In this document: in pieces, positions 46,296-63,597 of the stretch
Layout of the letters: every line of letters starts with the position of its first letter
Numbering within the stretch: position 1 is the stretch's first letter
DNA from: an uncultured Candidatus Binatia bacterium
GTDB lineage: Bacteria > Desulfobacterota > Binatia > Bin18
Length of the DNA: 64,000 bases
Direction: 5' to 3'
Assembly (NCBI GenBank): GCA_958296235.1
Contig: OY282457.1
Coordinates: 699,769-763,768, forward strand
Position numbers and translations under genes: made by a program
The notes under the pieces: generated by a model
The model's input: only the letters and a program-made list of their open reading frames with translations
The model's database searches: none
Told to the model about the DNA's origin: nothing

Positions 46296-48719
46296 ATGAG
46301 CACTGCAGAGCGCAGCTATCTATATACACTGGGGGAGCAGATTATTGCGCGGCGCAAGCTGGTTTTACTGTTCGTTACCCTCGCCACCCTGATTTTTGCC
46401 TCATTTGCTGTGCAGCTTGACCTCGTCACGCGGTTCGACGAACAACTGCCGGAGAACCACCCTTTCATCCAGGTCCATAAAACCTACGCGCCCACTTTCG
46501 GCGGAGCCAACACCATCATGCTGATGTTGGAGGTCCAGGAGGGCACCATTTTCAATCAGGCCACGTTAACCAAAATTTTCAATATGACCCAGGCACTGGA
46601 GCGGGTGTATGGCGTGAATAATGAATTGGTCAACTCCATCGCCCACCGGACCAACCGGCGCGTGATCATGAAAAGTGGCGGGATGCAGGAAGTCGAACCG
46701 GTCATGGAACGGGCGCCCGAGACCGAGGCAGAAGTCGAACGCATACGCCGCATCGTGCATTCCTCACGGAATTTATACGGCGTGCTCGTTTCGCTGGACG
46801 AAAAAGCCGCCCTGCTGAATGCCACCTTTATCGAGCAGCGGCTCGATTACCGGCGTCTGTTTGAAGAAATCCGGCGCTCTGTGGTTGAACCGTATGAAGA
46901 TGACAACACACGGATTCATATGGCCGGCCAACCCGCTCTGTACGGCTGGGTGTATTTCTACGCCAAGCAGGTCTACGTCATTTTTCTGGCAACGACGGTG
47001 CTGATGTGGCTGCTGCTGTACTGGTATTTTCACGATGTCCGCGGGGCCTTGCGACCCACCTTGACGGGTGTCATCTCGGCTATTTGGGGTCTGGGGTTTA
47101 TCAAGATGATCGGCTTCAGCCTGGACCCGCTCACCCTCGTCATTCCGTTCTTTATTACCGCCCGAGCGGTCAGTCACTCCGTCCAGATGCACGAACGCTA
47201 TTATGAGGAATACCGCAAGGCAAAAGGGCAAAAAGAACCAGCCATTATTGCCTCGTTCGCCGAACTGTTTGTGCCGACCCTGTCGGGTATCCTGACTGAT
47301 GCCCTGGGCCTGCTGGTGATCCTGTTCGTGCCCATTGTCCTCTTGCAGAAACTCGCCATTAGCGCGGCGGTGTGGATTCTCGCCATTACCGTGAGCGAAC
47401 TCTTGCTGAACCCGATCGTGTACCACTACCTGCGAGAACCCGACATTCGAGTCGTTGAGCGGCGCGAGAACGGCATCTTCAAACGGATTGTCTCGACTGC
47501 GGCGCACTTTCTCGTCTCGCCGGCGGGCAAAGGAGTGACGCTTGCCAGTTGGGCTGTTGTTTTGGGCGTCAGCGTTTACTTCTGGCAAAATCTGGTGATT
47601 GGCGACCCGACCGCGGCCACCCCGCTCCTGTACCGTGATTCTCCGCACAATACCGCCCATGCGCGCATTCAAGACACCTTTGGCGGGGTCGAGCAGCTCA
47701 TGGTTGTGGTTGAACGCAAAGAGCCAGAGAAAAAAGAAGACGCCGGCAAAAGCATGAATCCAATCGACCGATTTCGTCAGCAAAGCCAGGAGCCTTCATT
47801 GGCAACTCCTGAGGTCTTGCCCTGGATCGAACAATTTCAGCGTGCGCTCGAACGCGACCCAGCGGTCGGGTTGAGCTTCTCATTTGTGGATATTTTGTCG
47901 GTCGTAAATGGAGCCATTCATGAACAAGAGCCCAAATGGGAGGTCCTTCCCCGACGCACGAGTGAAGTCCGGCTCCTGCTCGCCTCCTACTTCTTCGGCA
48001 CCTCATTTCAGGAAAGCGCACAGGTCATTGATCACCAGTATCGCTCAGCGCCCATCCGCTTCTTTCTGACCGACCATCAGGGCGAAACCATTCGACGGGT
48101 TATTCAGCGGGCCCGCGACTATATCGATGCCCATCCCAGTGACGTCGCTCAGTTCCGGCTCGCCGGTGGCCCGATTGGCGTGTTGGCCGCTGCCAACGAA
48201 GAGTTGTTTCGGAATGATATTCTGGTCAATATTCTTGGTTTTGGCACGATCTTCCTCGTCCTCGTCATCACCTACCGCTCGGTCATGGCCGGGGTGTATA
48301 TGATTATTCCACTCCTCGTAGCCAATGCCGTGATTAACGCCTATATGGGCGCCCGCGATATTGGCATTAATATCCATACTCTGCCGGTGGTGACGGTCGG
48401 CGTCGGATTTGGCATTGACTATGCCCTGTATATTGTGAGTCGCATTATCGAAGAACATCGGCTGGGCAGGGGGCTGGATGACGCGGTCAGAACCGCCCTC
48501 GCAACATCCGGGAAAGCGGTGACCTTTACCGCCCTGACCATGCTCCTCGGTACGCTGTTCTGGACCATGTCCAGCCTCCGCTTTAGCGCCGAGATGGGGC
48601 TGCTGCTCGCGCTCTGGATGGGCGTCAGCTTCTTGGCAACCATGACGCTGTTACCCGTTCTGGTCGCGCTCTTCAAACCGCGCTTTGTCACGGCACAAGC
48701 AACCGCGGCCACGCATTGA
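46296..48719 (+). CDS. MMPL/RND family transporter, copy 1
   Basis: 807 residues. One helix at 22-41, a large periplasmic loop (about 42-225), five helices, a second helix-loop half from about 430, and five final helices: the 12-TM, two-fold layout of RND exporters. Blocks shared with the second copy at 58125 are ARAVSHSVQMHERYYEEYRK near residue 300 and TVGVGFGIDYALYIVSR near 700. It belongs to the MMPL-like branch (COG1033) that moves lipids and other hydrophobic molecules by proton motive force. The ATG at 46296 follows AAAAAGGGAG. The DUF1329 gene comes 245 bases downstream. Cargo unknown. Confidence 0.88.
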   Translation: MSTAERSYLYTLGEQIIARRKLVLLFVTLATLIFASFAVQLDLVTRFDEQLPENHPFIQVHKTYAPTFGGANTIMLMLEVQEGTIFNQATLTKIFNMTQALERVYGVNNELVNSIAHRTNRRVIMKSGGMQEVEPVMERAPETEAEVERIRRIVHSSRNLYGVLVSLDEKAALLNATFIEQRLDYRRLFEEIRRSVVEPYEDDNTRIHMAGQPALYGWVYFYAKQVYVIFLATTVLMWLLLYWYFHDVRGALRPTLTGVISAIWGLGFIKMIGFSLDPLTLVIPFFITARAVSHSVQMHERYYEEYRKAKGQKEPAIIASFAELFVPTLSGILTDALGLLVILFVPIVLLQKLAISAAVWILAITVSELLLNPIVYHYLREPDIRVVERRENGIFKRIVSTAAHFLVSPAGKGVTLASWAVVLGVSVYFWQNLVIGDPTAATPLLYRDSPHNTAHARIQDTFGGVEQLMVVVERKEPEKKEDAGKSMNPIDRFRQQSQEPSLATPEVLPWIEQFQRALERDPAVGLSFSFVDILSVVNGAIHEQEPKWEVLPRRTSEVRLLLASYFFGTSFQESAQVIDHQYRSAPIRFFLTDHQGETIRRVIQRARDYIDAHPSDVAQFRLAGGPIGVLAAANEELFRNDILVNILGFGTIFLVLVITYRSVMAGVYMIIPLLVANAVINAYMGARDIGINIHTLPVVTVGVGFGIDYALYIVSRIIEEHRLGRGLDDAVRTALATSGKAVTFTALTMLLGTLFWTMSSLRFSAEMGLLLALWMGVSFLATMTLLPVLVALFKPRFVTAQATAATH

Positions 48720-48964
48720 CCACATTGTCTTTGGAACCCTTATGGAGCAGAATCGAAAGAGGCTCTTTACCCTGGCCAGACAACGCAACCCCTCCCGGAG
48801 GATGTGGAAAAAGCCTCTTCTGAAACTATTGACGAAATATGCACGCTTATAAAGATAAAGCCGTCTGACAGAAAGGAGACAACGATGAGTCGGGCTCCCC
48901 CGTGCCGACCGAACAGTCGCCACCAGGCATTTCACAGGAATGTTCTAAAAAAAGGAGAGGTTTT

Positions 48965-50290
48965 ATGAGAACTTATTGGTGGACCAGAACGACCTGCGCA
49001 CTCACGCTTGTGGGCGCTATGGGCCTGTCAGCCCCGAGTTGGGTGGCTGCCGATGTCAACCCAGGGGACACTGTTACCAAAGACAATATGGCTGAGGCCG
49101 GTGATCTTCTTATCCCAGGTATCCAGTGGTTTGTCGAAAACGGCATGCCGATTCAGGTCGGTGAGTATAAGAAAGTCAATTTGCCGAAACTCTATGCGGA
49201 AGCGACCGAGAAATACTCCGGGCAGGTGCAACTCTCGGCAGATGGCCGTGAGATGTTTAACTACGTGGCCGGTGTGCCGTTCCCAAATATCGACCCCAAC
49301 GATCCCATGGCTGGGTCAAAGATCATGTGGAACCAGGAGCAGAAACCGGCCTATGTTGACAATGTCGGGACGGAATGGATCGTCGAACTTGTCAATGCCA
49401 GAGGCGAAATGGAGCGTATGTACGGCTCCCAGTTCTGGCGCCGGATGATGTGGACCGGTCGTCTGTACACCGACCCCAAACCGATTGTCCCCAACAACCC
49501 GCCAATGCGCTATACGGAGCAGTTTGGCCCCCTCTTTATCCCGAATGACCTGAAGGGCGCCGGCGTGCTGAACACGCGCTATCTGCCGACGAACATTCCA
49601 GACGACTCGTATATGTATCTGCCTGAGCTGCGTCGGGTGCGGCGTATCAGTGTTGCGAACCGCTCTGACGCCTTCTGGGGTACGGATATGGACCTGGATT
49701 CCCTGTGGGGCATGAATTCCAAGGTAGCGTATTGGAAGTTCCGCCTCCTGGCCGACAAGCAGATCCTGGCCCCGGTCCACATGGGCAAGTACGGAACCCG
49801 GGATGTCTGGTGTGCACAGCCGGACGGCAGAAGCGGCCCGATTGCGTTTATGCCGTGCAATATCAACTGGGAAAAGCGGAACGTCTACGTCGTTGAGGGT
49901 ATCCCGGCGGCCTACAGCCAGTATGCCTACTCCAAACGCATCTTCTATGTCGACAAAGACTTCTGGGCGCAGAATTTTTCCGAAATGTACGACAACGGTG
50001 GCGAACTGTGGAAGCTCTGGTTTAATATGTATGAGTATGGCCCGAAGCCGTATGAGGGCTATCCCACAAAACCCCTCCGGGGCGGTGCCTACAACTACAC
50101 AGATGACTGGGCCTTTACCCCGCACGGAATGATGGCCGACCTCCAGGTTGTCCACTCTACCAAGTGGGACGCGCCGTCCGGTTATGAGAAGAGAGAAGAC
50201 TGGGTCAACGAGTGGTATTTCAACGAAGCGGTCGAAATCAACACGGCCGCAGCGTTTTCGGTGAACTTCCTCATCCAAAGCGCCCGTTAA
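48965..50290 (+). CDS. DUF1329 periplasmic protein, copy 1
   Basis: 441 residues. A signal peptide (TTCALTLVGAMGLSAPSWVAA, cleaved near 29) precedes a DUF1329 domain that covers the rest: AEATEKYSGQVQLSADGREM, NYVAGVPFPNIDPNDP, DDSYMYLPELRRVRRISVANRSDAFWGTDMDLDS and YVVEGIPAAYSQYAYSKRIFYVD. From memory, this family is placed with LolA/LolB-like lipid-carrier folds, which would fit a periplasmic shuttle for a hydrophobic cargo. It is about half identical to the copy at 55386. AAAAGGAGAGG lies ahead of the ATG. It lies downstream of MMPL copy 1 and ends at a strong hairpin. Confidence 0.9.
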   Translation: MRTYWWTRTTCALTLVGAMGLSAPSWVAADVNPGDTVTKDNMAEAGDLLIPGIQWFVENGMPIQVGEYKKVNLPKLYAEATEKYSGQVQLSADGREMFNYVAGVPFPNIDPNDPMAGSKIMWNQEQKPAYVDNVGTEWIVELVNARGEMERMYGSQFWRRMMWTGRLYTDPKPIVPNNPPMRYTEQFGPLFIPNDLKGAGVLNTRYLPTNIPDDSYMYLPELRRVRRISVANRSDAFWGTDMDLDSLWGMNSKVAYWKFRLLADKQILAPVHMGKYGTRDVWCAQPDGRSGPIAFMPCNINWEKRNVYVVEGIPAAYSQYAYSKRIFYVDKDFWAQNFSEMYDNGGELWKLWFNMYEYGPKPYEGYPTKPLRGGAYNYTDDWAFTPHGMMADLQVVHSTKWDAPSGYEKREDWVNEWYFNEAVEINTAAAFSVNFLIQSAR

Positions 50291-50303
50291 CCCGACAACC
50301 ACC

Positions 50304-50331
50304 AACGGGGGAACCTGGCGGTTCCCCCGTT
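50304..50331 (+). terminator. Hairpin after DUF1329 copy 1
   Basis: AACGGGGGAACC, loop TGGC, GGTTCCCCCGTT: a perfect 12-bp stem 13 bases after the stop. It lacks a U-tract but is very stable, so it probably limits readthrough or protects the 3' end. Confidence 0.6.
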
Positions 50332-50420
50332 CACTCGTGACAGACGAACCGGCAGCTTTTTCTCTATTTCCTTTTTTGTTAGGGTGCCCGCACTTTCATT
50401 TTGCGGAGGGGGAGGGATTC

Positions 50421-50786
50421 ATGGCGAGTGATACGGAACAGACCGGAGAGGACAGCGGTCTTTCAAAAGCAGTCTGGCATTATATCAGTGTGGGGGTGCT
50501 GTGGCTTGGGTTAGTCTTCACTGGGGTCGCCTTTGAACGCCTCGGACTGACCACGTCCTACCTGACAGGCCTGCTCCCAGGTGAGGTCAACACGCTCAAG
50601 GCACAGATTAGTGAATATGAGAGTATGAATCAAAATCTGACGCACGAGAGAGACCAGGCGGTAAAAACGAGCGACACCCGTGGGCTTGAGTTGAGTAAGC
50701 TCAGACGAGTCCAGCGGGAGCTTGAAGCGGAAATTGAGGCATTAAAAGTAGCGCCCGCCGCAATGACCACACCCTCAGCATCATAG
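50421..50786 (+). CDS. Small membrane-anchored coiled-coil protein
   Basis: 121 residues. One membrane helix (about 23-41, YISVGVLWLGLVFTGVAF) is followed by a charged coiled coil from about 55 to 110 (LKAQISEYESMNQNLTHERDQ, then RRVQRELEAEIEAL). The start was moved to the ATG at 50421, which has GGAGGGGGAGGG just upstream. No family is recognised. It sits between the first DUF1329 gene and the Gld-like ABC genes and may be a structural or partner subunit of either. Confidence 0.65.
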   Translation: MASDTEQTGEDSGLSKAVWHYISVGVLWLGLVFTGVAFERLGLTTSYLTGLLPGEVNTLKAQISEYESMNQNLTHERDQAVKTSDTRGLELSKLRRVQRELEAEIEALKVAPAAMTTPSAS

Positions 50787-50868
50787 ACAAGCACGCGCAG
50801 TGAATGCGCTTCCCTTGCAGTCAGAGACGGTGAAACCGTTGGGCTGTGAGGGCCTTTGCAAGGTTTTT

Positions 50869-51825
50869 ATGATTGGAGTTCAGAACGTTACCAAATACTA
50901 TGGCCAGGTATGCGCCCTGGACGGCGTTTCCTTTTCGGTCAAAAGCGGGGAAATCGTCGGGCTGTTAGGGCCGAATGGTTCGGGTAAAACTACGCTCATG
51001 CGTATCCTGACCGGATTTTTTCCCGCCACCGAAGGGTCGGTTCACGTCGCAGGACTTGATGTGGCCACGTCTTCGCTCGAAGTCCGCAACCGTCTGGGCT
51101 ATCTGCCGGAAAGTGTTGTCCTCTACCCGGACATGTCCGTCCGTGCATTTCTGCACTTCTGCGCCCGGGTCAAGATCGATGGGACGGTACAGCGTCGCGC
51201 CAATGTTGAGCGCGTCCTCAGCGAGTGTGCCCTCGAACCGATGGCCCACCGTCAGATGGGTACGCTCTCAAAAGGCTACCGTCAGCGGGTCGGGCTCGCC
51301 CAAGCCCTGCTGGGCAAGCCCGAAGTCCTCATCCTGGACGAGCCGACGGTGGGCCTTGATCCGAACCAGGTTATCGACATCCGCGAGCTCATCAAGGGCC
51401 TGGGCGGAAAGGTCACCATCTTGCTGTCCAGCCACATCCTGCACGAGGTGGAGCTGATGTGTGAACGAGTGGTGATTATTGACAAAGGCCATATTCTTGC
51501 CGAGGACACGACCGATCGTTTAAGCGAGCGCATCCAGGGAGCGGCAAATGTGCGGGTTCGGGCAAGCGGACCGCGTCCCAGCATGCTCAACGCGCTCCGC
51601 GCGCTCAAAGAAGTCGCCCAGGTCACCGAACACGACCAGGAAGACAGTGACGGGCCGGAGGGGGCAGTTTTTACGGTTCGGTCTTCAAATCACGCTATCG
51701 CTCGGGAGATTGCCCAGACGATCATCCATAATGGCTGGGCGCTGCATGAGCTCAGACCGGTCACCCTTGACCTTGAGGCTCTTTTTGTCCGCTTGACCAG
51801 AGAGGAACAAAAGGAGGCGGCATAA
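50869..51825 (+). CDS. ABC transporter ATP-binding protein (GldA-like)
   Basis: 318 residues. Walker A GLLGPNGSGKTT at 31-42, signature LSKGYRQRVGLAQAL near 139, Walker B VLILDEPTVGLDPNQ near 156, and the switch His in LLSSHILHE. The C-terminal 90 residues form an extra domain, as in drug- and gliding-type (GldA/NatA) ATPases. It would power the permease encoded next (51922) at the inner membrane. The ATG at 50869 follows AAGG by six bases and is preferred over an upstream ATG. First gene of a compact ABC operon. Confidence 0.92.
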   Translation: MIGVQNVTKYYGQVCALDGVSFSVKSGEIVGLLGPNGSGKTTLMRILTGFFPATEGSVHVAGLDVATSSLEVRNRLGYLPESVVLYPDMSVRAFLHFCARVKIDGTVQRRANVERVLSECALEPMAHRQMGTLSKGYRQRVGLAQALLGKPEVLILDEPTVGLDPNQVIDIRELIKGLGGKVTILLSSHILHEVELMCERVVIIDKGHILAEDTTDRLSERIQGAANVRVRASGPRPSMLNALRALKEVAQVTEHDQEDSDGPEGAVFTVRSSNHAIAREIAQTIIHNGWALHELRPVTLDLEALFVRLTREEQKEAA

Positions 51826-51921
51826 ATCGCCCCAGCGCCCGTCATGTTTCAGCGTTGGAGTCCGGCGCTCAGCGTCGGCAGGCGGAGTATGGATAAGATA
51901 TCTTGATAAGAGGGTGGAACG

Positions 51922-52671
51922 ATGTTTGCGAACTTTTGGGCCGTTCTGAATAAGGAACTGCGCTCGTATTTTCTGTCGCCGTTCATTTATCTGATCTCGG
52001 CGGTCTTCCTGTTGCTGAGTGGCTATTATTTTTACTCAGACCTGGTTTTCTATGTCCAGTTCGGCTTTGGGCTGAATATCATGGAAAACTTTTGGCAGTT
52101 GATGTTCACCGACCTGCGTCTGGTCATCATGCTCACCGTTCCCTTCCTGACCATGCGTCTCTTTGCCGAAGAAAAGCGCCTCGGCACGATCGAGCTCTTA
52201 CTGACCTATCCGATGCGCGACACCGACCTCTTTTGGGGCAAATTTGTCGCGTGTGCGATCGCCACCCTGTTTATGCTGTCGTTTACCCTGATCTATCCCG
52301 TGTTGATGTCTTCCCTCCAGCCGTTTGACTGGACGCTGGTCGTACCCGGCTACGTTGGGCTGGTGATGCTCTCCCTGTCGTTTATTGCCTGTGGCCTGTT
52401 TATTTCGTCGCTCACGGATAACATCGTTGTTGCCGGTTTGGGCTCGCTTGGGACGCTGCTCTTTTTTTGGATTCTGAGCTGGAACGACGGGGCGACGCAA
52501 TTCGGGCTCATCAGCACGATTGCCTCCGTCTCCATGGTCACCCACTTCCAGAGCTTTGCCCTTGGGTTCATCGATACAAAAGAAATCACCTTCTTTTTGC
52601 TCTTTATTATCTTTTTCAGTTTTCTGACCCTTCGCTCCCTGGAAGCGCGGCAGTGGAGGGGACGCCGATGA
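51922..52671 (+). CDS. ABC-2 type permease (GldF-like)
   Basis: 249 residues with six membrane helices. NKELRSYFLSPFIYLISAVFLLLSGYYFY at the N-terminus, FLTMRLFAEEKRLGTIELLLTYPMRDTDLFWGKF and the last helix near FFLLFIIFFSFL are typical of GldF/ABC-2 permeases. It forms the channel with the ATPase at 50869. AGGGTGG precedes the ATG. Its stop overlaps the GldG-like start by 4 bases (ATGA), so the proteins are made together. Confidence 0.9.
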   Translation: MFANFWAVLNKELRSYFLSPFIYLISAVFLLLSGYYFYSDLVFYVQFGFGLNIMENFWQLMFTDLRLVIMLTVPFLTMRLFAEEKRLGTIELLLTYPMRDTDLFWGKFVACAIATLFMLSFTLIYPVLMSSLQPFDWTLVVPGYVGLVMLSLSFIACGLFISSLTDNIVVAGLGSLGTLLFFWILSWNDGATQFGLISTIASVSMVTHFQSFALGFIDTKEITFFLLFIIFFSFLTLRSLEARQWRGRR

Positions 52672-54032
52672 ATGCCAACGTTCGCAACACGATTAAACTC
52701 GTTATGGGAACCCTGGGCTTCTTCGCCCTGATTGTGGCGGTCCAGTCTCTCCTGTCCGAACGTAATCAGCGGCTTGACCTGACCCCACAGAAAAAGTTCA
52801 CACTCTCGCCACGAGCGCAACGGGTCGTGTCCGACCTGCAACGCGATGTCCAGGTCATGGCCTTTGTTCACAGTGACCGTCCGGAAAATTTCTTTATCAA
52901 GGACATGCTCAGCCGCATGGCCAACCTCTCGCCGCACTTCAACTACAGTATTGTTGACATCAATCGGAATCCTGCCCTGGCCCGAGAATACCAGGCGACC
53001 CAATACGGAACGCTGGTGTTTGAGTCGGGCGGGATACGCAAAGGGACGCTGCTGGGAAGAGGCGAGTCCGCGGCCATTGCCACCCTGCTTCAGGTCTCGC
53101 GCGCGCAGGGAGACAAAGTCATTTACTTCCTGACTGGGCATGGGGAGGCCGCCCTGCCCGATGCGTCTCCGACTCGGGGCTACAGCAAACTCCGGGGAGC
53201 CCTGGTTGATGAATTTTATGATGAGCAAACCCTCTCGCTCGGCGAGAGCGGAGCGGTTCCAGAGGATGCCACCGTGGTGGTTATCTTCGGCCCGACATCG
53301 AGTTTTCTCCCATTCGAACTCGAAGCGCTGGACGCCTATGTGCGGCGTGGGGGTGCCCTGTTTGTCCTGCTCGACCCGGACAGCTCACCCTCATTCGTCA
53401 CTTTTCTTGAGCGCTACGGCATTCACCTGCCCCCCCTCATTGCCGTCGATCCTACCAAGCGTCTCTTTGCTGGCGAGATGCTGACCTTCCGGGCTTCCGC
53501 TACCAATAAACCGCACCCGATGATCCGCTCGGTTAATGCGCCGCCTATTTTTTCACTCGCCCGCGTTGTGGAGATGGAACCGGATAGGGCACAGGGTCTG
53601 AGTGCGACCGCTATTCTTGCGACCTCGCCCCAGGGCTGGGCCAGCGCCCAGGAAAACATCCCGCGCACTGGGGTGACGACATTCGAGCAGGACCGGGACG
53701 TGCGCGGTCCTATTCCTATTGCCGGTGAAATGGCCATTCAGACCGGCGAGGCGCTCGGACGCATTGTCGTGTTCGGCGATGCGGACTTCGCCAATAATAC
53801 TTTAGTCGAACAGGGCGGCAATAAAGACCTCTTCATCAATGCCATTAATTGGCTCGCGGAAGACCAAGGGCAGATGGCAGCCAGACCGGAGACCCAACAG
53901 TCTGGTGTCAATCAACTCTTTCTCTCCTCAGATCAAATTCAGACCGTTCTTGTCACAAGCACCGTCATTATACCGGGCTTTTTCTTGCTCATCGGGGTAG
54001 GCATCTTTCTGGGGCGGAGGTATCGCGGATGA
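52668..54032 (+). CDS. GldG-like (ABC-type uncharacterised transport) protein
   Basis: 454 residues. An N-terminal membrane helix (10-30, VMGTLGFFALIVAVQSL), a large periplasmic region with LTPQKKFTLSPRAQRVVSDLQRDVQVMAF and VIYFLTGHGEA (GldG/DUF4350-like), and a C-terminal membrane helix (FFLLIGVGIFLGRR). In Bacteroidetes the related GldG works with GldA and GldF in gliding; outside that phylum the set is common with unknown cargo. The start is fixed by the ATGA overlap with the permease gene and has GGAGGGGACG upstream. Confidence 0.88.
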   Translation: MNANVRNTIKLVMGTLGFFALIVAVQSLLSERNQRLDLTPQKKFTLSPRAQRVVSDLQRDVQVMAFVHSDRPENFFIKDMLSRMANLSPHFNYSIVDINRNPALAREYQATQYGTLVFESGGIRKGTLLGRGESAAIATLLQVSRAQGDKVIYFLTGHGEAALPDASPTRGYSKLRGALVDEFYDEQTLSLGESGAVPEDATVVVIFGPTSSFLPFELEALDAYVRRGGALFVLLDPDSSPSFVTFLERYGIHLPPLIAVDPTKRLFAGEMLTFRASATNKPHPMIRSVNAPPIFSLARVVEMEPDRAQGLSATAILATSPQGWASAQENIPRTGVTTFEQDRDVRGPIPIAGEMAIQTGEALGRIVVFGDADFANNTLVEQGGNKDLFINAINWLAEDQGQMAARPETQQSGVNQLFLSSDQIQTVLVTSTVIIPGFFLLIGVGIFLGRRYRG

Positions 54033-54607
54033 CGTGGCGGCGTGTTGGCCTGTACTATCTTTTTGCTATTGTCCTCGGGGGGTATTACCTCCTTTTTGAA
54101 TGGCGTCCGGGCGGCCCGGACGCACCGATCTTTGAACGCCGTCCCGGCCAGGAGAGTACGTTTCTGGCACTCAAACGTGATACGATTCACAAACTTTCCA
54201 TCAAGCGCCAGCAGCACACCTTTGTCTCGCAACGCCGCGAGGCACAACCGGGTGAGGAGATCGCTGAGTGGCAGGTGCTTGAGCCGACCGGGGCACCGGT
54301 TACCTCTGCGCTGGTAAGCAGCTTTATCGAAAATCTCACCCCGGATAGAAAGATCCCCATCGTTCACGAGGCCCCGGAGGACTTGGCTGCGTACGGTCTG
54401 GCCCCACCCGATTCAACGGTTATCATCGAGGGCGAAGGCGAGCCCGGCACGGAAACCATCTTCATTGGAGGCTATAATCCGACAAAAACGGCTGTTTATG
54501 CCCGTAAGGATGGCTCTCCCGAAGTGGTCCTGTTGGGTTATAATGTGAAATATTATGAAGATCTGATCTTTCAGGCGGCACAGCGTGGTACAGAAGAGCG
54601 TTCCTAG
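54029..54607 (+). CDS. DUF4340 domain protein, membrane-anchored
   Basis: 192 residues. One N-terminal membrane helix (VGLYYLFAIVLGGYYLLF), then a periplasmic DUF4340-type domain: RDTIHKLSIKRQ, LSSFIENLTPDRKI-like and AAYGLAPPDSTVIIEG, FIGGYNPTKTAVYARKDG. DUF4340 genes usually follow gldG-type genes. The ATG overlaps the GldG stop by 4 bases (ATGA), so the two are coupled. It is shorter than most DUF4340 proteins, probably carrying one repeat of the domain. Function unknown; presumed accessory subunit of the ABC system. Confidence 0.85.
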   Translation: MTWRRVGLYYLFAIVLGGYYLLFEWRPGGPDAPIFERRPGQESTFLALKRDTIHKLSIKRQQHTFVSQRREAQPGEEIAEWQVLEPTGAPVTSALVSSFIENLTPDRKIPIVHEAPEDLAAYGLAPPDSTVIIEGEGEPGTETIFIGGYNPTKTAVYARKDGSPEVVLLGYNVKYYEDLIFQAAQRGTEERS

Positions 54608-54650: not shown

Positions 54651-55208
54651 ATGAACCGGCGCGCTCGTTCAAGACTGCTCAGCGTGCCTGTCCTGTGTCT
54701 CTGGTGCGTCGTGCTGCCGGGCTGCCTGCCCGAAGCCGTCAGCGTCCAGGACGACCTGACGGCGTATATGGACCAGGCCCGTTTATGGGCGGCGACCGAG
54801 GCAAAAATCAACAACGCGATTGCAAGCGCCAGAAAAGACCAGTTTGTTCATGACGACTTTGTGCTGGAAACCATGCGCCCGGCGGTCGGGGTCGCCCGGG
54901 AGTATGTTGTCGAATTGGAGCGCTATGAACCAAAGTCTCCGGCCCTGGCGCAGGTCCATCAAGGCTATATCGAATCCTGGCGCGCCCATGAGTTTGCTCT
55001 GGTGTCGGTCGTTGATGCCGTTGAACGCCAGGATTATGTTCAGCTTTCACGGGCGAATGATGAGTTGTTGGAGGCACAGCGCTCGGTTTCGGACGTTCTT
55101 GCCGCTCTTGCGCGGCTGCTGCGTGAGGCTGGCCTGGCCCCGGACACGCCGACCGGACGGCCTCTCACACCCCCCCGTGAGGGGTTCAGCATTGACCCTT
55201 CTGCCTAG
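54651..55208 (+). CDS. Lipoprotein of unknown function, helical
   Basis: 185 residues. A lipoprotein signal (LLSVPVLCLWCVVLPGC, C26 or so) is followed by an all-helical domain rich in Glu/Asp/Arg (YMDQARLWAATEAKINNAIA, LVSVVDAVERQDYVQLSRANDELLEAQRSVSDVLAALARLLREAG) and a Pro-rich tail. No family recognised. The ATG at 54651 was chosen because it gives the lipobox; the longer GTG start at 54585 would not. It lies 43 bases after the DUF4340 gene and so belongs to the ABC operon. A periplasmic or outer-membrane lipoprotein partner is plausible. Confidence 0.7.
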   Translation: MNRRARSRLLSVPVLCLWCVVLPGCLPEAVSVQDDLTAYMDQARLWAATEAKINNAIASARKDQFVHDDFVLETMRPAVGVAREYVVELERYEPKSPALAQVHQGYIESWRAHEFALVSVVDAVERQDYVQLSRANDELLEAQRSVSDVLAALARLLREAGLAPDTPTGRPLTPPREGFSIDPSA

Positions 55209-55385: not shown

Positions 55386-56684
55386 ATGAAGCTGAAAGCA
55401 TATTTTTCCGCCGCGCTCGTATGCGCGGCAGTGGGGGGCTGGGTCGTCCCGGCCGCCGCTAACTTCCCCCAACCGGGGGACGTTGTCGATAAGAGCAATA
55501 TGGCCGAGGCGGCGGATGTCCTCAATCCCACGGCAAACTGGATGCTCAACCAGGGCATGAGCATGAAGGTCATTGAGTACCGCAAGTATGAATGGCCCAG
55601 GGCGTACGCAGAGGCCACAGAAAAATTTGCCGGCCAGGTGCAGTTGTCAGAAGATGGTCGGCAGATGTTCAACTACGTCGCTGGGTGTCCGTTTCCCAGC
55701 ATCGACGTCAACGACCCCCTCGCCGGTGCCAAGGCCATGTGGAACCACGAGTACTTTCCTGATTTTACGGACAACGTGGGCTGTCCCTGGATTCTCGAAC
55801 TGGTGAACTACAAGGGCGAGATGGAGCGCTTTTATGCCTCGCACTTCTGGCGGCGTATGAAGTGGGAAGGCCGGCTGCACATGGACCCGAAGCCGATCGC
55901 GCCGTTTAACCCACAGATTACTTATACCGAGCAATGGGGGCCACTATACGCCCCGAACGATCTGAAGGGCGCGGGCGTGCTGAACTTCCGGTATACCCCG
56001 CTCGAAAATCCGGATGACTCGTATATGTATCTGCCTGAGCTGCGCCGTGTGCGTCGTATCAGCGTGGCGAACCGCTCGGACGCCTTCTGGGGCACGGACA
56101 TCGATATCGACTCGATTTGGGGCTTCAACGCCAAGCCTGGATACTGGACCTGGCGCGTCTTGGCCGAGAAAGAGACCCTCATGGCTGCCCACTCAGGCCA
56201 TTACCAGAATCGAGAAGTCTGGGCTGCTGCACCGGACGGTCGCTCCGGTGCGACCGCCTTTCTCTGGTCGGACACAGTGCAGTGGGAACGCCGGCCGGTA
56301 TGGGTCGTCGAAGGCATCCCGACCGGGTATAACCAGTATGCCTACTCCAAACGGGTTATCTACCTCGACAAAGAGTATTTCAACACCTCATGGTCAGAGA
56401 CGTATGACCAGGGTGGTGAGATCTGGAAAACCTGGACTCAGCTCATGAACATCTCGAAGAAGCCCTCAGACAAGTATATTGCCGCGGACTACGACGAGGA
56501 ACAGGTCTTTACCCACAACGGGCAGGTGGTCGATATGCAGATTACCCATAGCTCCAAGTGGGACTGCCCTCCAGGCTATGACGAGTACTACGTGCCGAAG
56601 TATGACTGGTACTTCAATACCGCCAAGGAGTGGAACACGCCTGAGGCGTTCACCGTGAATTTTCTGATCCAGAGCGCCCGCTAA
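55386..56684 (+). CDS. DUF1329 periplasmic protein, copy 2
   Basis: 432 residues. Signal peptide (YFSAALVCAAVGGWVVPAAA, cleaved near 25) then a DUF1329 domain similar to copy 1: AYAEATEKFAGQVQLSEDGRQMF, CPFPSIDVNDP, DDSYMYLPELRRVRRISVANRSDAFWGTDIDIDS, EGIPTGYNQYAYSKRVIYLD. The DNA is also highly similar in the central block (49602-49687 vs 56010-56095). The ATG at 55386 follows AAAGGAGG. It precedes the YCF48 gene and ends at a strong bidirectional terminator. Confidence 0.9.
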   Translation: MKLKAYFSAALVCAAVGGWVVPAAANFPQPGDVVDKSNMAEAADVLNPTANWMLNQGMSMKVIEYRKYEWPRAYAEATEKFAGQVQLSEDGRQMFNYVAGCPFPSIDVNDPLAGAKAMWNHEYFPDFTDNVGCPWILELVNYKGEMERFYASHFWRRMKWEGRLHMDPKPIAPFNPQITYTEQWGPLYAPNDLKGAGVLNFRYTPLENPDDSYMYLPELRRVRRISVANRSDAFWGTDIDIDSIWGFNAKPGYWTWRVLAEKETLMAAHSGHYQNREVWAAAPDGRSGATAFLWSDTVQWERRPVWVVEGIPTGYNQYAYSKRVIYLDKEYFNTSWSETYDQGGEIWKTWTQLMNISKKPSDKYIAADYDEEQVFTHNGQVVDMQITHSSKWDCPPGYDEYYVPKYDWYFNTAKEWNTPEAFTVNFLIQSAR

Positions 56685-56716
56685 ACGTCACAGCCCCCTG
56701 CCCTGCTGTGATGAAG

Positions 56717-56755
56717 AAAATCCCCCGTACAACCCTGTACGGGGGATTTTTATTT
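56717..56755. terminator. Strong intrinsic terminator after DUF1329 copy 2
   Basis: AAAATCCCCCGTAC, loop AACCCT, GTACGGGGGATTTT, then T-rich DNA. The stem has 14 base pairs and poly-A and poly-T ends on both sides, so it can act on either strand. It separates DUF1329 copy 2 from the YCF48 gene. Confidence 0.9.
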
Positions 56756-56924: not shown

Positions 56925-58061
56925 ATGAATACTGAGAGGGCCGGCTTGGCCCGGAGATGCACCAGCCTTTTCGCCTCGCTGTTTACCGCTGCGACCCTAC
57001 TCGGTTTGGCGGGCTGCCACGGAGAGCAGCCAACCGCCTGGAGCACATCGCTGCTGGCGCGGACCGACAAATTTTTTGGTGCCGCCCACGTCACGGGCGA
57101 CACCTTTGTGGCCGTAGGCTACGCCGGCCGCATATTGCGGAGTGAGGATGCAGGCAAAACCTGGGCAGATGTTGACAGCGGCGTGTCCTGGACGCTCAAC
57201 AACGTCAACTTCGCCGGCGAGCATGGCTGGGCAGTCGGCCATAATGGAGCCGTCATCCACTCCCGGGACAGCGGCAAAACCTGGACAGCGCAAACCGCGG
57301 ACACGGACAAGACCCTGATGGCGGTCTCCTTTGTTGACCAACTGCACGGCTGGGTGTGTGGCGATGAATCAACCTGGATGTGGACCGACAACGGTGGAGA
57401 GACCTGGAACGTCGAGCGCATGGACGTGGCTCAGATCGGCTTGTCCGAGTTCACCAGTCTCGCCGTGCCTGACATCATCTATTACAGCGTACAGTTTCTG
57501 GACAAAAACACCGGCTGGATGGTGGGTGAATACGGCAATGTCCGCTACACCACAGACGGTGGCAAAACCTGGGGGTCACAGCACGGGAGTTTGCTTGATG
57601 AACTCGTTGAGCAGGGGGGCGTGCGGGACGTCATGGTGATGGGCGCGTTTTTTAAGGTGCACTTCAGCGATCCCAATAATGGGGTGATGGTCGGCGCTGG
57701 TGGGGCGGTTGCAAAAACCAGTGACGGCGGTCAGGCCTGGACCTGGGTGGCGCGTGAGGGTAGCAATGCGGATGTTCCGGCGCTGCATCTCTACGATATT
57801 GATACGCCGGGCGAGAATGGTCGTCTCGTCCTCGCCGGCATGAATGCGGTCGTGCTTGATACCACCGACGGCGGAACCAACTGGGGCCCGACCAAGACAC
57901 CGGAAGGCGTATACACCTGGATCAATTCGGTTGCCTTTGGAGAAAACGGCAAGGGCGTTCTGGTGGGCGGGAAAGGCACCATTATGATCACCAGCGATGG
58001 CGGCAAGAGTTGGGAGATGGTTGAGCAGGAAATAACCGAGGAGCCGGCTGACGCGCATTAG
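56925..58061 (+). CDS. YCF48/HCF136-like seven-bladed beta-propeller lipoprotein
   Basis: 378 residues. A lipoprotein signal (FTAATLLGLAGCHG, lipobox L-A-G-C) is followed by seven repeats of the BNR/Ycf48 type, each ending G-x-x-x-x-x-x-x-D-x-G-K/Q-x-W (for example ILRSEDAGKTW, VIHSRDSGKTW, VRYTTDGGKTW, IMITSDGGKSW). Seven blades make a full propeller. In plants and cyanobacteria the relative assists photosystem II assembly; in heterotrophs it is linked to MMPL transporters and DUF1329/DUF1302 genes, and its role there is unknown. GGGAGG is upstream of the ATG at 56925. MMPL copy 2 follows after 63 bases. Confidence 0.9.
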   Translation: MNTERAGLARRCTSLFASLFTAATLLGLAGCHGEQPTAWSTSLLARTDKFFGAAHVTGDTFVAVGYAGRILRSEDAGKTWADVDSGVSWTLNNVNFAGEHGWAVGHNGAVIHSRDSGKTWTAQTADTDKTLMAVSFVDQLHGWVCGDESTWMWTDNGGETWNVERMDVAQIGLSEFTSLAVPDIIYYSVQFLDKNTGWMVGEYGNVRYTTDGGKTWGSQHGSLLDELVEQGGVRDVMVMGAFFKVHFSDPNNGVMVGAGGAVAKTSDGGQAWTWVAREGSNADVPALHLYDIDTPGENGRLVLAGMNAVVLDTTDGGTNWGPTKTPEGVYTWINSVAFGENGKGVLVGGKGTIMITSDGGKSWEMVEQEITEEPADAH

Positions 58062-58124: not shown

Positions 58125-60518
58125 GTGGCTGACAAGAAGAAGTTGCCGACTATCGAAGAGCTCGAAGCGCATTCCAGAGACCGCGCCGCTCTCTATCGTT
58201 TGGGAGAAGGCCTGATCCGGAATCGCTTTCTGATCACGCTCGGGGTATTGCTTGTAACCGGTTTCATGGCCTGGCAGGCGTTATCGATTGAAATGTCTAC
58301 CAGCTTTAACGACCTGCTTCCGTACCGTCATCCGTTCGTCCGGGTGCATTTCCGCTTTGCTGATCAATTCGGCGGGGCGAATAACGTCAACGTGATGCTG
58401 AAAGTGGAGAAGGGCGACGTCTTTTCAGTCGGTGCGATGCGAAAAATCTACGATATGACGCAGGCCATGGACCGCGTCACCGGGGTAAACCACGACCAGA
58501 TTGAGTCGGTCGGTCATCGCACGACACGCTATCTCACGGTGTCAGGCGGGACGATAGCCACCCCCCCGGTCATGCGTCGTCCACCCAAGTCAGACCGAGA
58601 AGTCGATGAGATCAAGGAAATTTGCTATAACACCGAAACCATCTATGGCCAGCTGGTCGCCCTGAACGGTCAGGCCCTCCTGCTGAAAGCCAATTTCATT
58701 GAGGGCAAGCTCGACTATAAGACCGTCTTTGAGCAGATCCGCCGGACCGTCAAAGAACCCTTTGAGACCGCTGAGGAGACGATCTGGGTGGCTGGCGAGC
58801 CCCAGCTCTACGGCTGGATATACTACTACGCGAACGAGGTGTTTTACATTTTCCTGGCCGCGACGGTGGTGTGCTGGATCTTGCTCTACCTCTACTTCCA
58901 CGATTGGCGCGGAGCACTGCGCCCGACCATCACCGGCATTGTGTCGGCTTTTTGGGGTCTGGGTATTCAGGCCATGATGGGCTTCTCCATGGACCCGCTT
59001 GCCCTGGTGATTCCCTTCTTTGTCACGGCCCGAGCCGTGAGTCACTCGGTGCAGATGCACGAGCGCTATTACGAGGAATACCGCAAGTGGCAGTGGAATA
59101 AAGAAAAGGCGATTGTCGCCGCGTTTGCCGAATTATTCGTGCCAACCCTGAGCGGGATTATTACCGACTCGTTGGGCATGCTCGTCATCGTGGTTGTGCC
59201 GGTGGTCATCCTGCAAAAGATCGCCATCTCGGCTTCGATCTGGGTCGCCTCGGTTGCGATCAGCGAACTGCTCATGAACCCGGTGGTGTACTACTACCTC
59301 AAAGCGCCCGAACCGGAAAAGGTCATGCAGCGCGAGGAAGGCTGGCTCCAACGTTTTGCTGACCGCTGCGCAGCCTGGATCACGACTCCCAAAAACGCCA
59401 AGATGATTGTTATTTTCTGGGTCGCGTCCTTTCTGGTTGCCCTGACCCAGATTCGGCACCTCACCATCGGCGATCCAACCGCGGCCACGCCGCTATTGCA
59501 TCTGGAGTCTCCGTATAATCAGGCCCATATCGAGATTCAAAAGTACTTTGGTGGGATTGAACCGCTCATCATTGTGGTCGAGGGGCGTGACAAAGAAGTA
59601 CTCAAGAACCCTGATTTATTGCGCCAACTCGAAAAATTCCAGCGTCATATGGAGCGCGATAAAGATATCGGCTACAGCTTCTCGCTGGCTGACATCATTC
59701 AAGCCATTAATATGACTTTCTATGATATGCAGCCACGCTGGGGCTCCATCCCGGCCAGTGCCCGGCGGGTGAGTTCGCTCTTCTTTTACTATTTTGCCGG
59801 CACACCGCCCGGCGAGTCGTCGAAATTCCTCGACCCGAGCTATACGGTCTCGCGGGTGACGTTCTACTGCTCCAATCACCAGGGGGATAATATCGCCCGG
59901 ATTATTCAGGAAGCGCGAAAATTCGTTGCTGACAACCCGCTGCCCAATGCGGACTGGCGTCTGGCCGGTGGTTTGATCGGGGTGACAGCCGCAGCGAATG
60001 AAGAGATTATCAAAAACAACCTGTATATGCACGGCCTGGGCTTCGGGACGATCTTCCTGATCGTGATGTTTACCTACCGTTCCCCGGTCGCCGCAATCGT
60101 GATGATGATCGGCCTGTTTCTGGCCGACGGCGTTGTAAACGCGTATATGGGTGTCCGTAATATCGGTATCAACTTGCAGTCTCTGCCGGTGGTGACCGTC
60201 GGGGTTGGATTTGGCATTGACTACGCCTTATACATCGTCAGTCGAGCGGTGGAAGAATACGACGGCGATATTAACGACGCAGTCCGGTTAGGGCTCTCGA
60301 CCGCGGGGAAAGCGGTTGCCTTCACCGCGGCAACCCTGATCACGGCGACGGTTCTGTGGGCGTTCTCGAACATCCGTTTCTGCTCGGAAATGGGCCTGCT
60401 GTTGGCATTGTGGATGGGCATCAGCTTCCTTGGCGCCTGTACCTTTGTGCCGGCGGCATTGGTGCTCTGGCATCCGAAGTTCTTTGTTCGTGCTGCCAGA
60501 GAAGGTATTATTGCCTAA
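58125..60518 (+). CDS. MMPL/RND family transporter, copy 2
   Basis: 797 residues with the same 12-TM layout as copy 1. N-terminal helix at about 36-52, periplasmic loop to about 225, then ARAVSHSVQMHERYYEEYRKW near 310 and TVGVGFGIDYALYIVSRAVEEY near 695. The two copies are roughly half identical and differ mostly in the periplasmic loops, which suggests different cargo or partner contacts. The GTG start at 58125 is supported by AAAAGGAGAG. It follows the YCF48 gene by 63 bases and is ended by a perfect terminator. Confidence 0.9.
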   Translation: MADKKKLPTIEELEAHSRDRAALYRLGEGLIRNRFLITLGVLLVTGFMAWQALSIEMSTSFNDLLPYRHPFVRVHFRFADQFGGANNVNVMLKVEKGDVFSVGAMRKIYDMTQAMDRVTGVNHDQIESVGHRTTRYLTVSGGTIATPPVMRRPPKSDREVDEIKEICYNTETIYGQLVALNGQALLLKANFIEGKLDYKTVFEQIRRTVKEPFETAEETIWVAGEPQLYGWIYYYANEVFYIFLAATVVCWILLYLYFHDWRGALRPTITGIVSAFWGLGIQAMMGFSMDPLALVIPFFVTARAVSHSVQMHERYYEEYRKWQWNKEKAIVAAFAELFVPTLSGIITDSLGMLVIVVVPVVILQKIAISASIWVASVAISELLMNPVVYYYLKAPEPEKVMQREEGWLQRFADRCAAWITTPKNAKMIVIFWVASFLVALTQIRHLTIGDPTAATPLLHLESPYNQAHIEIQKYFGGIEPLIIVVEGRDKEVLKNPDLLRQLEKFQRHMERDKDIGYSFSLADIIQAINMTFYDMQPRWGSIPASARRVSSLFFYYFAGTPPGESSKFLDPSYTVSRVTFYCSNHQGDNIARIIQEARKFVADNPLPNADWRLAGGLIGVTAAANEEIIKNNLYMHGLGFGTIFLIVMFTYRSPVAAIVMMIGLFLADGVVNAYMGVRNIGINLQSLPVVTVGVGFGIDYALYIVSRAVEEYDGDINDAVRLGLSTAGKAVAFTAATLITATVLWAFSNIRFCSEMGLLLALWMGISFLGACTFVPAALVLWHPKFFVRAAREGIIA

Positions 60519-60545
60519 AACCTCTCTCCCTTCTTATCTGAAGGC

Positions 60546-60580
60546 AAAAGAGGCAGCCTCATGAGGCTGCCTCTTTTTTT
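60546..60580 (+). terminator. Intrinsic terminator after MMPL copy 2
   Basis: AGGCAGCCTC and GAGGCTGCCT form a perfect palindrome extended by AAAAG / CTTTT, then a run of seven Ts. It lies 28 bases after the stop codon. Confidence 0.92.
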
Positions 60581-60754
60581 GTCCAAAGACGGCGGAGAAG
60601 AACTGATGAGTATAGTAGTAGCCCCCTCATCGTCGGGACCAGTCGGACGGGGCGTCTATTCGGGGGAACAGGCCGGTGGGGAGAGGCGCGCAGTTGGCAA
60701 TAACCACGCGCGAGTCATTGATGAGATGGGCGGCGAGGGGGCAATCTGGAGAAT

Positions 60755-60769
60755 AAAGCGAAACGCTTT
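60755..60769 (-). terminator. Small hairpin downstream of the minus-strand lipoprotein gene
   Basis: AAAGCG-TTT-CGCTTT on the minus strand, two bases after the lipoprotein stop, followed by ATTCTCC. Weak. The rest of the 252-base gap (60519-60770) holds only the MMPL terminator and no recognisable gene. Confidence 0.35.
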
Positions 60770-60770
60770 A

Positions 60771-61055
60771 CTACTGATCTTCCAGGTCTTCACCACCCTT
60801 TTGCATCGCCCCTTCAGGGTTTGTCAACAGCGACTCACCAAGGGCTTTCGGGTTCGCAGCCAATCCGGGTTCTTGGCTATCCTTACTGGCTTGCTTGTAC
60901 TGGTCAACCAAAGACGGTTTGGGCTCAGCATCCTTGACTTCATCGATTGGTGGAGCGCCGAGTTCACACCCGCCCAGCACAACAATCGATCCAATTCCAC
61001 ACGCGACAAGCCCGTGCCGCAGCCATTTACTGTAACGAGAAAAAATATCTTGCAT
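60771..61055 (-). CDS. Small lipoprotein
   Basis: 94 residues. MQDIFSRYSKWLRHGLVACGIGSIVVLGGCELG carries a lipobox L-G-G-C (C30), and the short mature part is polar and disordered (KPSLVDQYKQASKDSQEPG). It is the only minus-strand gene in this 18-kb block, and its 3' end faces MMPL copy 2. No family recognised. Start at the ATG 61053-61055, weak ribosome site; an extra ten-residue extension with a non-ATG start is also possible. Confidence 0.6.
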   Translation of the reverse strand: MQDIFSRYSKWLRHGLVACGIGSIVVLGGCELGAPPIDEVKDAEPKPSLVDQYKQASKDSQEPGLAANPKALGESLLTNPEGAMQKGGEDLEDQ

Positions 61056-61296
61056 GGAGCGGTCTATTAAAGAAAGCCGTCGCATTTGTCAAGAGCGGAA
61101 ACACAGGGAAGTGCCGCCTTGGGCCGTTGCAAAATATAAAGAATAACGCTAGAAGCAGCCTGGAATACCAAATCATCTTTTGTACGCCGAATTGCACTAG
61201 GGATTTATGGGGAAAGGGGGTGACCTGCTGCAACCAGTGGAAACAGAGCGTGAACAAGGTAGGGAGGATAATTCTTTGTTACAGGAGGGAGAGTTT

Positions 61297-63597
61297 ATGA
61301 CCAAACACAACAGGAAACAGCGCTCGGGCCTGCGAGGACTAGTGGCCGGGTTAGCCATCGTAGCGGGGCTCGTGTGGCTGACGAACCCCGCGCAAGCGGT
61401 GGTCCGAGTGGGCGACTCAGAGATTCAAGTCGTGTACGAGATGCAGCACTCATTTCAGTTTGACGGCAGCCCCGGCGATAACTTCGAGTGGGTGCAGTGG
61501 CGCAACGAGATGCGCGTGGAGTACGAGTATCAAGATTTAGTGTCAACCGAAGGTGGGTTGTTCGGTAAGAACATCAAAATCCCAGGGGTCCGTCGCGCCG
61601 ACTTCTCCTTCATGTATCGGGGTCGCTATGACCCGGTCTACGCGGTACGCGACAAGTATGACGACATGTATCCCCACCGCGTCAAGCAGTTCAAGTCCTT
61701 TTCATTTCCCGAGAACGGGTTTCGAGAAATGAACCTGGATGTGGACTTCGGGGATGTGATGGGCCATCGGCTGTCGATGAAGCTGGGCAAACAGCAGATC
61801 GTGTGGGGAGAATCCGACCTGTTCCGCTCCATTGACATTGCCAACCCGCTACGGCTGGACCAGAACCAGGCCGTGGGCGAAGCCTTTGAGGACTTTCGGA
61901 CACCCATCTGGGCTATCAAGTTCCTGTATGACATCGGCAACGTCGGAACGTTTCTGTCCAACGTCGGTCTGGAGTTCTTCTACACGCCCCGCTGGCGACC
62001 CATCACCCAACACCTGGTGTTGGAAGGTGGCTGGGGTGGCTTGCGTTACGATGACCCGAACTTCATTGGCGATCCGAGCGACTATTTTGAGTCGCCGACC
62101 TCACCAGGCGTGTTGACCACCAAGGGCGTACCCTGGGCACCCTATCGTGACTACGCCCGGATTCGCCATCCGTGGTCGTTGTTCCGGGTCGGACGCAACT
62201 TGGGGAATATGGCCCCCGACAGTGGTTGTAATCCCGATGTCCCCTGTACGGACGACGCTGCCGGTCGGAACGGCAACTTCTTGTACCGGATTGGGGGCGG
62301 TCGCCACACCCACCATATTCGCGGCACGAAGTGGAAAAACAGTATGGTCGGCGTGCGGATGATGGGGAAGGCATTCGACAATTTCGACTTCACCTTGAAT
62401 TATATGTTCAAGCGCACAGACCCGGCCGCTGTGTTTGACCTGCCGTCCTTCTTTGGTAGGGACCACGACGACGGCCTCGGCAGATTGGACCAGTACGGCC
62501 GGCGACTCGGCTCCTTCAGCAATACCCTGCTGGGTTCAGAGGGTGGATTTTATACATATAACCCGACCGACTCGGACGACACGTTGCACTTCCGCCGCGC
62601 CCTGGACCGGTGTTTCAAAGAGAACAAAGCCACGTTTTTCAGTGGGGTCGATTCGTATGGCTACAGCCAGGACGGCAACCGGAACAACGACCGGACTTCG
62701 ACGGCGTGCTTCGAGGTTGCCCACTGGATGCCGTGGACAAACGTGTTTGGCTTCACGGTCACCTATAACGACTTCGACTACACCGGTGCAGTATTCCGCC
62801 TGGAGCAGAGCTGGTCGACTAATGAGCCGCGTAACTACGGTGGCTCGAATGTCGGCGGTCGGTCTCAAGCACACTTTGATGCGAAGTTGCAGGCCGCCCG
62901 GGAGAACTATCTGGCCGGCCTGGATGACAACCCGGAATATGCCGCGGCGGTTGATCAATATGCTGCCGACAACGGGGTTGACCGTCGTGGCGCGGTATTC
63001 GGCGCAGAGGGCGTTGACCCGCTCATCACCGGCCCCCACCACGATACTGAGGGCAACCCCTGCGCACCGGGCGTGAACGTGTGCCCCGGCAAGAGGATCA
63101 ACGGCGATCGGATTAAGACTGGCACGTCTGTATGGCGGAGCATGATCGGCTTTGACCTGATTCAGTCCATTCAGTCCTTTCCGGGCATGGGCTGGACGCG
63201 TGGCCTGCCGGGCGGCATTGGCGACCAGGCAACCTTCTACACCTTCCAGGCCCTGACCACCTACCAGAACAACAACCGCACCGGGGGTGTCAACGCCTTC
63301 ACCAACGCGCCGCGAGACCGGCACCATCGGTTTAATCAGTTGTACACGTTTGGTCTGTCGGGCTTTTACTTCCGAGGCAAGCTGGAGCCGCTGTTTGCAT
63401 TCGCCTACTCCGTGAACGCCAAGCAGCCGCTGATTCTGGCCCAGACCTACTGGCATGGCTTGTTCTTCCGCAACCTTGACCTCTTTGCCGGCACGGTCAT
63501 GTATATGGGCAGTCGCAACGATGTCGATGGTACCTTGCTAAACCTGTGGGCCGATCGCGATCTGTTCTGGATTCGTCTCCAGTACTACCTGCTGTAA
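61297..63597 (+). CDS. DUF1302 outer-membrane protein
   Basis: 766 residues. Signal peptide cut after PAQA (about 34), then a beta-barrel-like body rich in aromatic residues and short amphipathic strands (NEMRVEYEYQD, RRADFSFMYRGRYD, HRLSMKLGKQQIVWGESDLFRSIDIANPLRLDQ) and a final LFWIRLQYYLL. DUF1302 proteins are predicted outer-membrane porin-like barrels that pair with DUF1329. Long loops contain Cys pairs (GCNPDVPCTDD, NPCAPGVNVCPGK), which could form disulphides. An AGGAGGGAG site precedes the ATG at 61297. It may be the outer-membrane entry or exit of the MMPL/DUF1329 system. Confidence 0.88.
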   Translation: MTKHNRKQRSGLRGLVAGLAIVAGLVWLTNPAQAVVRVGDSEIQVVYEMQHSFQFDGSPGDNFEWVQWRNEMRVEYEYQDLVSTEGGLFGKNIKIPGVRRADFSFMYRGRYDPVYAVRDKYDDMYPHRVKQFKSFSFPENGFREMNLDVDFGDVMGHRLSMKLGKQQIVWGESDLFRSIDIANPLRLDQNQAVGEAFEDFRTPIWAIKFLYDIGNVGTFLSNVGLEFFYTPRWRPITQHLVLEGGWGGLRYDDPNFIGDPSDYFESPTSPGVLTTKGVPWAPYRDYARIRHPWSLFRVGRNLGNMAPDSGCNPDVPCTDDAAGRNGNFLYRIGGGRHTHHIRGTKWKNSMVGVRMMGKAFDNFDFTLNYMFKRTDPAAVFDLPSFFGRDHDDGLGRLDQYGRRLGSFSNTLLGSEGGFYTYNPTDSDDTLHFRRALDRCFKENKATFFSGVDSYGYSQDGNRNNDRTSTACFEVAHWMPWTNVFGFTVTYNDFDYTGAVFRLEQSWSTNEPRNYGGSNVGGRSQAHFDAKLQAARENYLAGLDDNPEYAAAVDQYAADNGVDRRGAVFGAEGVDPLITGPHHDTEGNPCAPGVNVCPGKRINGDRIKTGTSVWRSMIGFDLIQSIQSFPGMGWTRGLPGGIGDQATFYTFQALTTYQNNNRTGGVNAFTNAPRDRHHRFNQLYTFGLSGFYFRGKLEPLFAFAYSVNAKQPLILAQTYWHGLFFRNLDLFAGTVMYMGSRNDVDGTLLNLWADRDLFWIRLQYYLL

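Follow-up and report, generated by a model that had tools for sequence, protein, structure and literature searches.

An AmeABCD-like envelope gene block with an adjoining ABC/GldG/DUF4340 unit in an uncultured Binatia bacterium

Little is understood of the passage of hydrophobic molecules through the Gram-negative envelope, and the protein families DUF1329 and DUF1302 still bear names that denote an unknown function. A gene block in which both occur together with two MMPL transporters and a YCF48-type propeller raises the question of which envelope system it encodes, how its paired genes arose and what the ABC transporter genes in its middle contribute. An answer may help explain how uncultured Binatia acquire hydrophobic substrates. 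The stretch of DNA analysed, which will be referred to as the window, comprises 64,000 nucleotides (positions 699769-763768 of the genome contig) of a 4.62 Mb genome consisting of a single contig. Candidatus Binatia/Binatota MAGs encode proteins with 95-98% identity to MMPL-2; a Binatota "bin18" is known from the sponge Aplysina aerophoba (PMC9999580), and the host bacterium is probably sponge-associated.

Gene content and conservation of the block

The original prediction had described the locus as one duplicated MMPL/DUF1329 system accompanied by YCF48 and DUF1302. All six genes it named were found where it had placed them, as open reading frames with significant Pfam matches (Table 1), and DUF1302, DUF1329, YCF48 and RND/MMPL genes, in the following called the quartet, thereby occur together at the locus. 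Two parts had been overlooked, namely the ABC/GldG/DUF4340 genes (50800-54607), which belong to the same conserved block and represent its most unusual portion, and a second DUF1302 gene just past the end of the window. An Rfam search gave no match.

Table 1: Features of the locus. Positions refer to the window unless indicated otherwise.
Feature	Position	Strand	Evidence and remarks
DsbA-like thioredoxin, 5′ of MMPL-1	45545..46201	+	Pfam DSBA 9.1e-16
MMPL-1, RND-type inner-membrane transporter, 807 aa, ATG at 46296	46296..48719	+	Pfam MMPL 2.6e-30
DUF1329-1, putative periplasmic LolA-like carrier	48965..50290	+	Pfam DUF1329 5.4e-48; LolA_like 4.1e-16
Small protein, single hydrophobic stretch followed by coiled coil	50370..50786	+	ORF 50337-50786; weak coiled-coil matches only
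ABC transporter ATPase, possible start 50869	50800..51825	+	Pfam ABC_tran 4.8e-34; adjoins MMPL in many Binatia
ABC-2 type permease	51922..52671	+	Pfam ABC2_membrane_2 2.6e-9
GldG-like ABC auxiliary protein	52668..54032	+	Pfam ABC_transp_aux 2.1e-24
DUF4340 protein	54029..54607	+	Pfam DUF4340 6.4e-14; same place in L049
Putative lipoprotein, LPGC near N terminus	54651..55208	+	no Pfam family
DUF1329-2, putative periplasmic LolA-like carrier	55386..56684	+	Pfam DUF1329 7.1e-48; LolA_like 5.3e-16
Terminator-like hairpin, DUF1329-2/YCF48 gap	56716..56751	+	16-pair stem with T run
YCF48-type propeller, lipobox LAGC	56925..58061	+	Pfam PSII_BNR 1.4e-35
MMPL-2, RND-type inner-membrane transporter	58125..60518	+	Pfam MMPL 1.2e-26; AlphaFold model with RND fold, mean pLDDT 73.1
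Small putative lipoprotein (LGGC), uncertain member of the system	60771..61085	-	ORF, lipobox; no Pfam family
DUF1302-1, putative outer-membrane conduit	61297..63597	+	Pfam DUF1302 1.7e-14
DUF1302, second copy	genome 764222-766480, ~450 bases beyond window end		80.7% identity to DUF1302-1

The arrangement is well beyond what chance would give: six congener loci (L009-L014) preserve the block, at about 80-99% protein identity and as far as their contigs extend, in the order MMPL-1, DUF1329-1, ABC, permease, GldG, lipoprotein, DUF1329-2, YCF48, MMPL-2, DUF1302. The second DUF1302 gene is present in all five congener loci with a sufficiently long contig. The LPGC lipoprotein shows 85-91% identity in the congener blocks and 54% in L017. 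In other genera of the family (L017, L054, L059), DUF1302 occupies the position of DUF1329-2. L054, L059 and L060, which represent three further genera of the family, likewise have a DsbA-like gene beside MMPL-1, and folding of DUF1329 or DUF1302 might depend on the product of this gene.

The stem of the hairpin downstream of DUF1329-2 is identical in all six congener loci; in L009 the loop is replaced by its reverse complement (GGGT instead of ACCC). In the window, L009 and L012, MMPL-2 too is followed by a terminator-like hairpin. The hairpin following DUF1329-2 could allow DUF1329 output in excess over MMPL. In the proteome of a benzene-degrading consortium, DUF1329 ranked 4th, YCF48 36th and MMPL 45th (PMC13101534).

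A class-wide survey covered 78 Binatia genomes. Among the 110 best MMPL matches listed, 45 have a GldG match within 10 kb on the same contig, compared to ~1.0 expected for uniform placement. Among the same 110 matches the linkage extends over 30 genomes and 10 families, which share ancestry and do not represent ten independent events. In most of these families the genes run YCF48-MMPL-ABC-permease-GldG. Downstream lie four DUF1329 genes in L040, two each in L042 and L044, and a single one in L041, L053 and L074.

Relation to known systems

DUF1302, DUF1329, YCF48/COG4447 and RND proteins are likewise encoded together, in a catabolic setting, by ameABCD of Castellaniella defragrans (PMC6394551). 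Deletion of these genes lowers yield and tolerance on monoterpenes. Nile Red enters the mutant in larger amounts, pointing to efflux, and the authors proposed AmeABCD to expel toxic hydrophobic substrates or by-products (PMC6394551). In contrast to AmeABCD, the Binatia block has two MMPL, two DUF1329 and two DUF1302 genes as well as the ABC/GldG/DUF4340 unit. The Pseudomonas putida genes PP_0765/0766 and PP_2018/2019 also encode a DUF1302, a DUF1329, a periplasmic and an RND protein, all of which are needed on Tween 20 and whose predicted contacts suggest a single route (PMC10866462). They form two separate gene pairs, whereas the Binatia genes lie in one block including the ABC unit. The predicted participation of these families in one transport route is backed by this published genetics and co-folding (PMC6394551, PMC10866462), and the idea of a trans-envelope route is itself already published. 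The "Nanopod" cluster, which Candidatus Anaerobenzenivorax expresses at a high level while degrading benzene, resembles the block in its porin-like protein, DUF1329, YCF48 and MMPL; it adds a universal stress protein and a hypothetical protein, with no ABC unit among its proteins listed (PMC13101534).

All four families were found side by side in eight out of eight plasmid cassettes read from alpha-, beta- and gammaproteobacteria, in agreement with the prediction that they form one set. The MMPLs of the block are 26-34% identical to those of the nearest cassettes. No ABC/GldG gene is annotated in the eight cassettes, as judged from the annotation of incomplete gene tables and one GldG search, which yielded two distant matches only, both on other plasmids. 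GldA/GldF/GldG constitute an ABC transporter of Flavobacterium. Compared on these genes alone, the Binatia unit resembles it in its ATPase, ABC-2 permease and GldG-like auxiliary protein and differs in being linked to MMPL, YCF48 and DUF1329. A literature search with most subscription papers outside its coverage revealed no paper in which DUF4340 appears alongside MMPL, or "Gldg family" alongside DUF1329; the extension of an AmeABCD-type set by ABC/GldG/DUF4340 genes in Binatia did not turn up in the literature covered. This conserved link provides DUF1329/DUF1302 and the little-understood GldG/DUF4340 group with a testable partner.

Age of the copies and features of the proteins

As predicted, the copies share a conserved core and diverge elsewhere, with overall identities of 49.4% for the MMPLs (~20% to 82% in 40-column blocks) and 57.7% for the DUF1329 proteins. 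The assumption of one system duplicated in two halves, however, did not hold. In the tree of the MMPLs, family f3 contributes a relative to each of the two copies, which dates their split to before the origin of family f1. A single block duplication, represented by an f1-only clade of MMPL-1 and MMPL-2, was rejected (p-AU 0.0003), whereas a clade of f1 and f3 combined was allowed (p 0.63), the groups for this topology test having been named after the first tree was seen. DUF1329-1, DUF1329-2 and a third paralogue at 1.12 Mb formed one f1-only group in a quick tree, and DUF1302 is duplicated in the congeners too. The MMPL split thus predates the family and the DUF1329 split occurred within it, which makes at least three duplication events of different age instead of one.

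The model of MMPL-2 contains 12 long, potentially membrane-spanning helices and matches RND proteins with Z about 40. Since NPC1, Patched, MmpL and AcrB relatives tie in Z, the fold gives no pointer to the cargo. HAE3 (TIGR00921) was the best-scoring NCBIfam family for both MMPLs, the scores of 163.7 and 160.2 bits remaining below its cut-off of 351.9. MMPL-2 shares an RND fold with the lipid exporters HpnN and MmpL3 and matches 5khn and 6n40 in sequence, with 5.6e-20 to MmpL3 and 4e-12 to HpnN. In contrast to these exporters, the MMPLs of the block score far below the NCBIfam cut-offs (at most 57.3 bits versus 751.85 or 1100 for HpnN; far below also for the MmpL3 models) and carry SHxxQ in TM4.

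MMPL-1 has the motifs ARAVSHSVQ in TM4 and GFGIDY in TM10. With small variations, AR..SH..Q was found in TM4 of the quartet-type Binatia MMPLs and their two nearest plasmid relatives, and A/S-I-G-x-SH-x-x-Q in the remaining proteobacterial MMPLs compared; GxGxDY of TM10 is kept in nearly all. In other MMPLs of the host genome, the corresponding TM4 position is taken by GVADGIH, GVANGIH or a similar sequence. SHxxQ together with the single TM10 Asp may be a hallmark of the quartet-type engine, and one might speculate that these residues take part in proton transfer. On the opposite strand, L056 (2564-4849) and L057 (278-2575) contain a diverged MMPL-like gene that has neither the TM4 SHxxQ nor the TM10 Asp-Tyr and may encode a non-transporting relative. 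Tandem MMPL genes of another type are located at G000:C1:2562972-2570605 (L037), with an in-frame TAG reported in one of them.

The predicted lipid-carrier-like nature of DUF1329 gained support from the LolA-like family PF17131, which both copies match above its cut-off (Table 1), and from a match to PDB 3bk5 (E=1.9e-11). The AlphaFold model of DUF1329 reached a pLDDT of 28.7, which is too low for a pocket to be seen. Sequence searches with DUF1302 revealed no relative with a solved structure.

Cargo, direction and number of engines

An acyl-CoA dehydrogenase gene identified by Pfam adjoins the block in L045, L048, L049, L050 and L051, and in L053 the neighbour resembles an acyl-CoA dehydrogenase by its N-terminus; such neighbours occur in families f4, f5, f10, f14 and f16. 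SDR and CoA ligase genes are present in addition in L048 and L051. As the block runs into acyl-CoA dehydrogenase genes in these other Binatia families, hydrophobic growth substrates are a plausible cargo. Neighbours of the plasmid cassettes include beta-oxidation-type genes in Aromatoleum, rubredoxins in Methylibium and benzaldehyde and alcohol dehydrogenases in Azospirillum, and a YCF48 gene of P. veronii has phenol hydroxylase genes in its vicinity. A claim on DUF1329 and phenanthrene quoted in PMC13101534 was not found under the name DUF1329 in the paper cited for it. Steroid catabolism was considered on account of ChsH2-type OB-fold genes near some loci and was dropped, as KshA was not found. 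A lone YCF48 gene (1.263 Mb; G000:C1:1260339-1263500, L036) lies among thiolase, acyl-CoA dehydrogenase and ChsH2-type OB-fold genes, and no MMPL, DUF1329 or DUF1302 was found in its surroundings.

What was observed is a gene set, its conserved order and the co-occurrence of its families. The explanation we favour, with modest confidence, is a Binatia variant of the AmeABCD-type envelope system with hydrophobic cargo, two inner-membrane engines and net inward transport. Judging from the fold families and the work on relatives, DUF1302 would be the outer-membrane conduit, DUF1329 a carrier that is abundant in the periplasm and built around a LolA-like core, YCF48 a lipoprotein propeller docking on MMPL, and MMPL a proton-driven RND engine loading or unloading the DUF1329 carrier. 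The ABC-2 transporter, GldG and DUF4340 would form a second inner-membrane engine, probably for the same hydrophobic molecules as MMPL, and the cargo would most likely be hydrophobic growth substrates or their acids destined for CoA-dependent degradation. Net transport is slightly more probably inward than outward, because the genes are found in catabolic surroundings, and relatives mutated in them cannot grow, or give low yields, on the substrate. Against this explanation, genes that lie together need not function together, and RND and ABC-2 proteins are usually exporters.

With the same parts working outward, toxic hydrophobic substrates or by-products would be removed, a serious if not a probable possibility for which the lowered monoterpene tolerance and raised Nile Red influx of the ameABCD deletion argue (PMC6394551). 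The characterised RND relatives HpnN and MmpL3 are exporters as well. Efflux is less easily reconciled with growth on Tween, which is not known to be toxic to Pseudomonas. It is on Tween 20 that the P. putida set is needed for growth (PMC10866462). Envelope building, in which a lipid or pigment of the cell's own (hopanoid, carotenoid or similar) is carried from the inner to the outer membrane, appears quite improbable. It would agree with the sequence matches of MMPL-2 to MmpL3 and HpnN, its structural matches to sterol or lipid RND folds and the description of Binatota as pigment producers (PMC9999580), but the loci scanned link to catabolic genes and not to lipid or pigment synthesis, and the low NCBIfam HpnN and MmpL3 scores argue against it.

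The ABC/GldG/DUF4340 unit could also be a merely inherited neighbour with an independent function beside an ordinary AmeABCD-type set. The proteobacterial quartet without annotated ABC genes, the quartet-type Binatia MMPLs with none nearby (L067, L069, L071-L073) and the shared ancestry of the genomes, whose families are not independent events, are consistent with such a neighbour. We nevertheless consider it rather unlikely, as the order is maintained across families with MMPLs only 50-60% identical and ABC genes adjoin a second MMPL clade too (L056, L057, L074). A machine with two engines, in which proton-driven MMPL/YCF48 and ATP-driven ABC/GldG/DUF4340 would exchange hydrophobic cargo via an interchangeable DUF1329 pool and DUF1302 pores, is put forward tentatively and with considerable doubt; if true, it would represent an unrecognised class of trans-envelope transporter.

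The co-occurrence analysis called for by the original prediction, run over the 78 Binatia genomes, was in line with a common system: DUF1329 was found in 75, DUF1302 in 71 and strong MMPL matches in 72 of them. The six genomes without a strong MMPL match have 0-1 DUF1329 genes compared to a median of 9 in the others (p=5e-5), and genomes with more DUF1329 genes tend to have more DUF1302 genes (rho 0.54), both values being uncorrected for kinship. The host genome carries 17 DUF1329 and 9 DUF1302 genes versus three quartet-type MMPLs found, which share the TM4 motif: MMPL-1, MMPL-2 and one at 4.24 Mb with its own YCF48-MMPL-DUF1302-DUF1329 cassette. All DUF1302 genes of this genome lie within 10 kb of a DUF1329 gene. 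Since carriers outnumber engines, several DUF1329/DUF1302 pairs probably share few engines, for which the joint action of two pairs with separate locus numbers in P. putida provides a precedent (PMC10866462), and the carrier excess in Binatia suggests a modular design. In three genomes of Binatia family f12 (G024, G060, G072), DUF1329 and DUF1302 score >500 bits against Pfam, far above the other Binatia searched, which suggests that these genes were transferred from another lineage.
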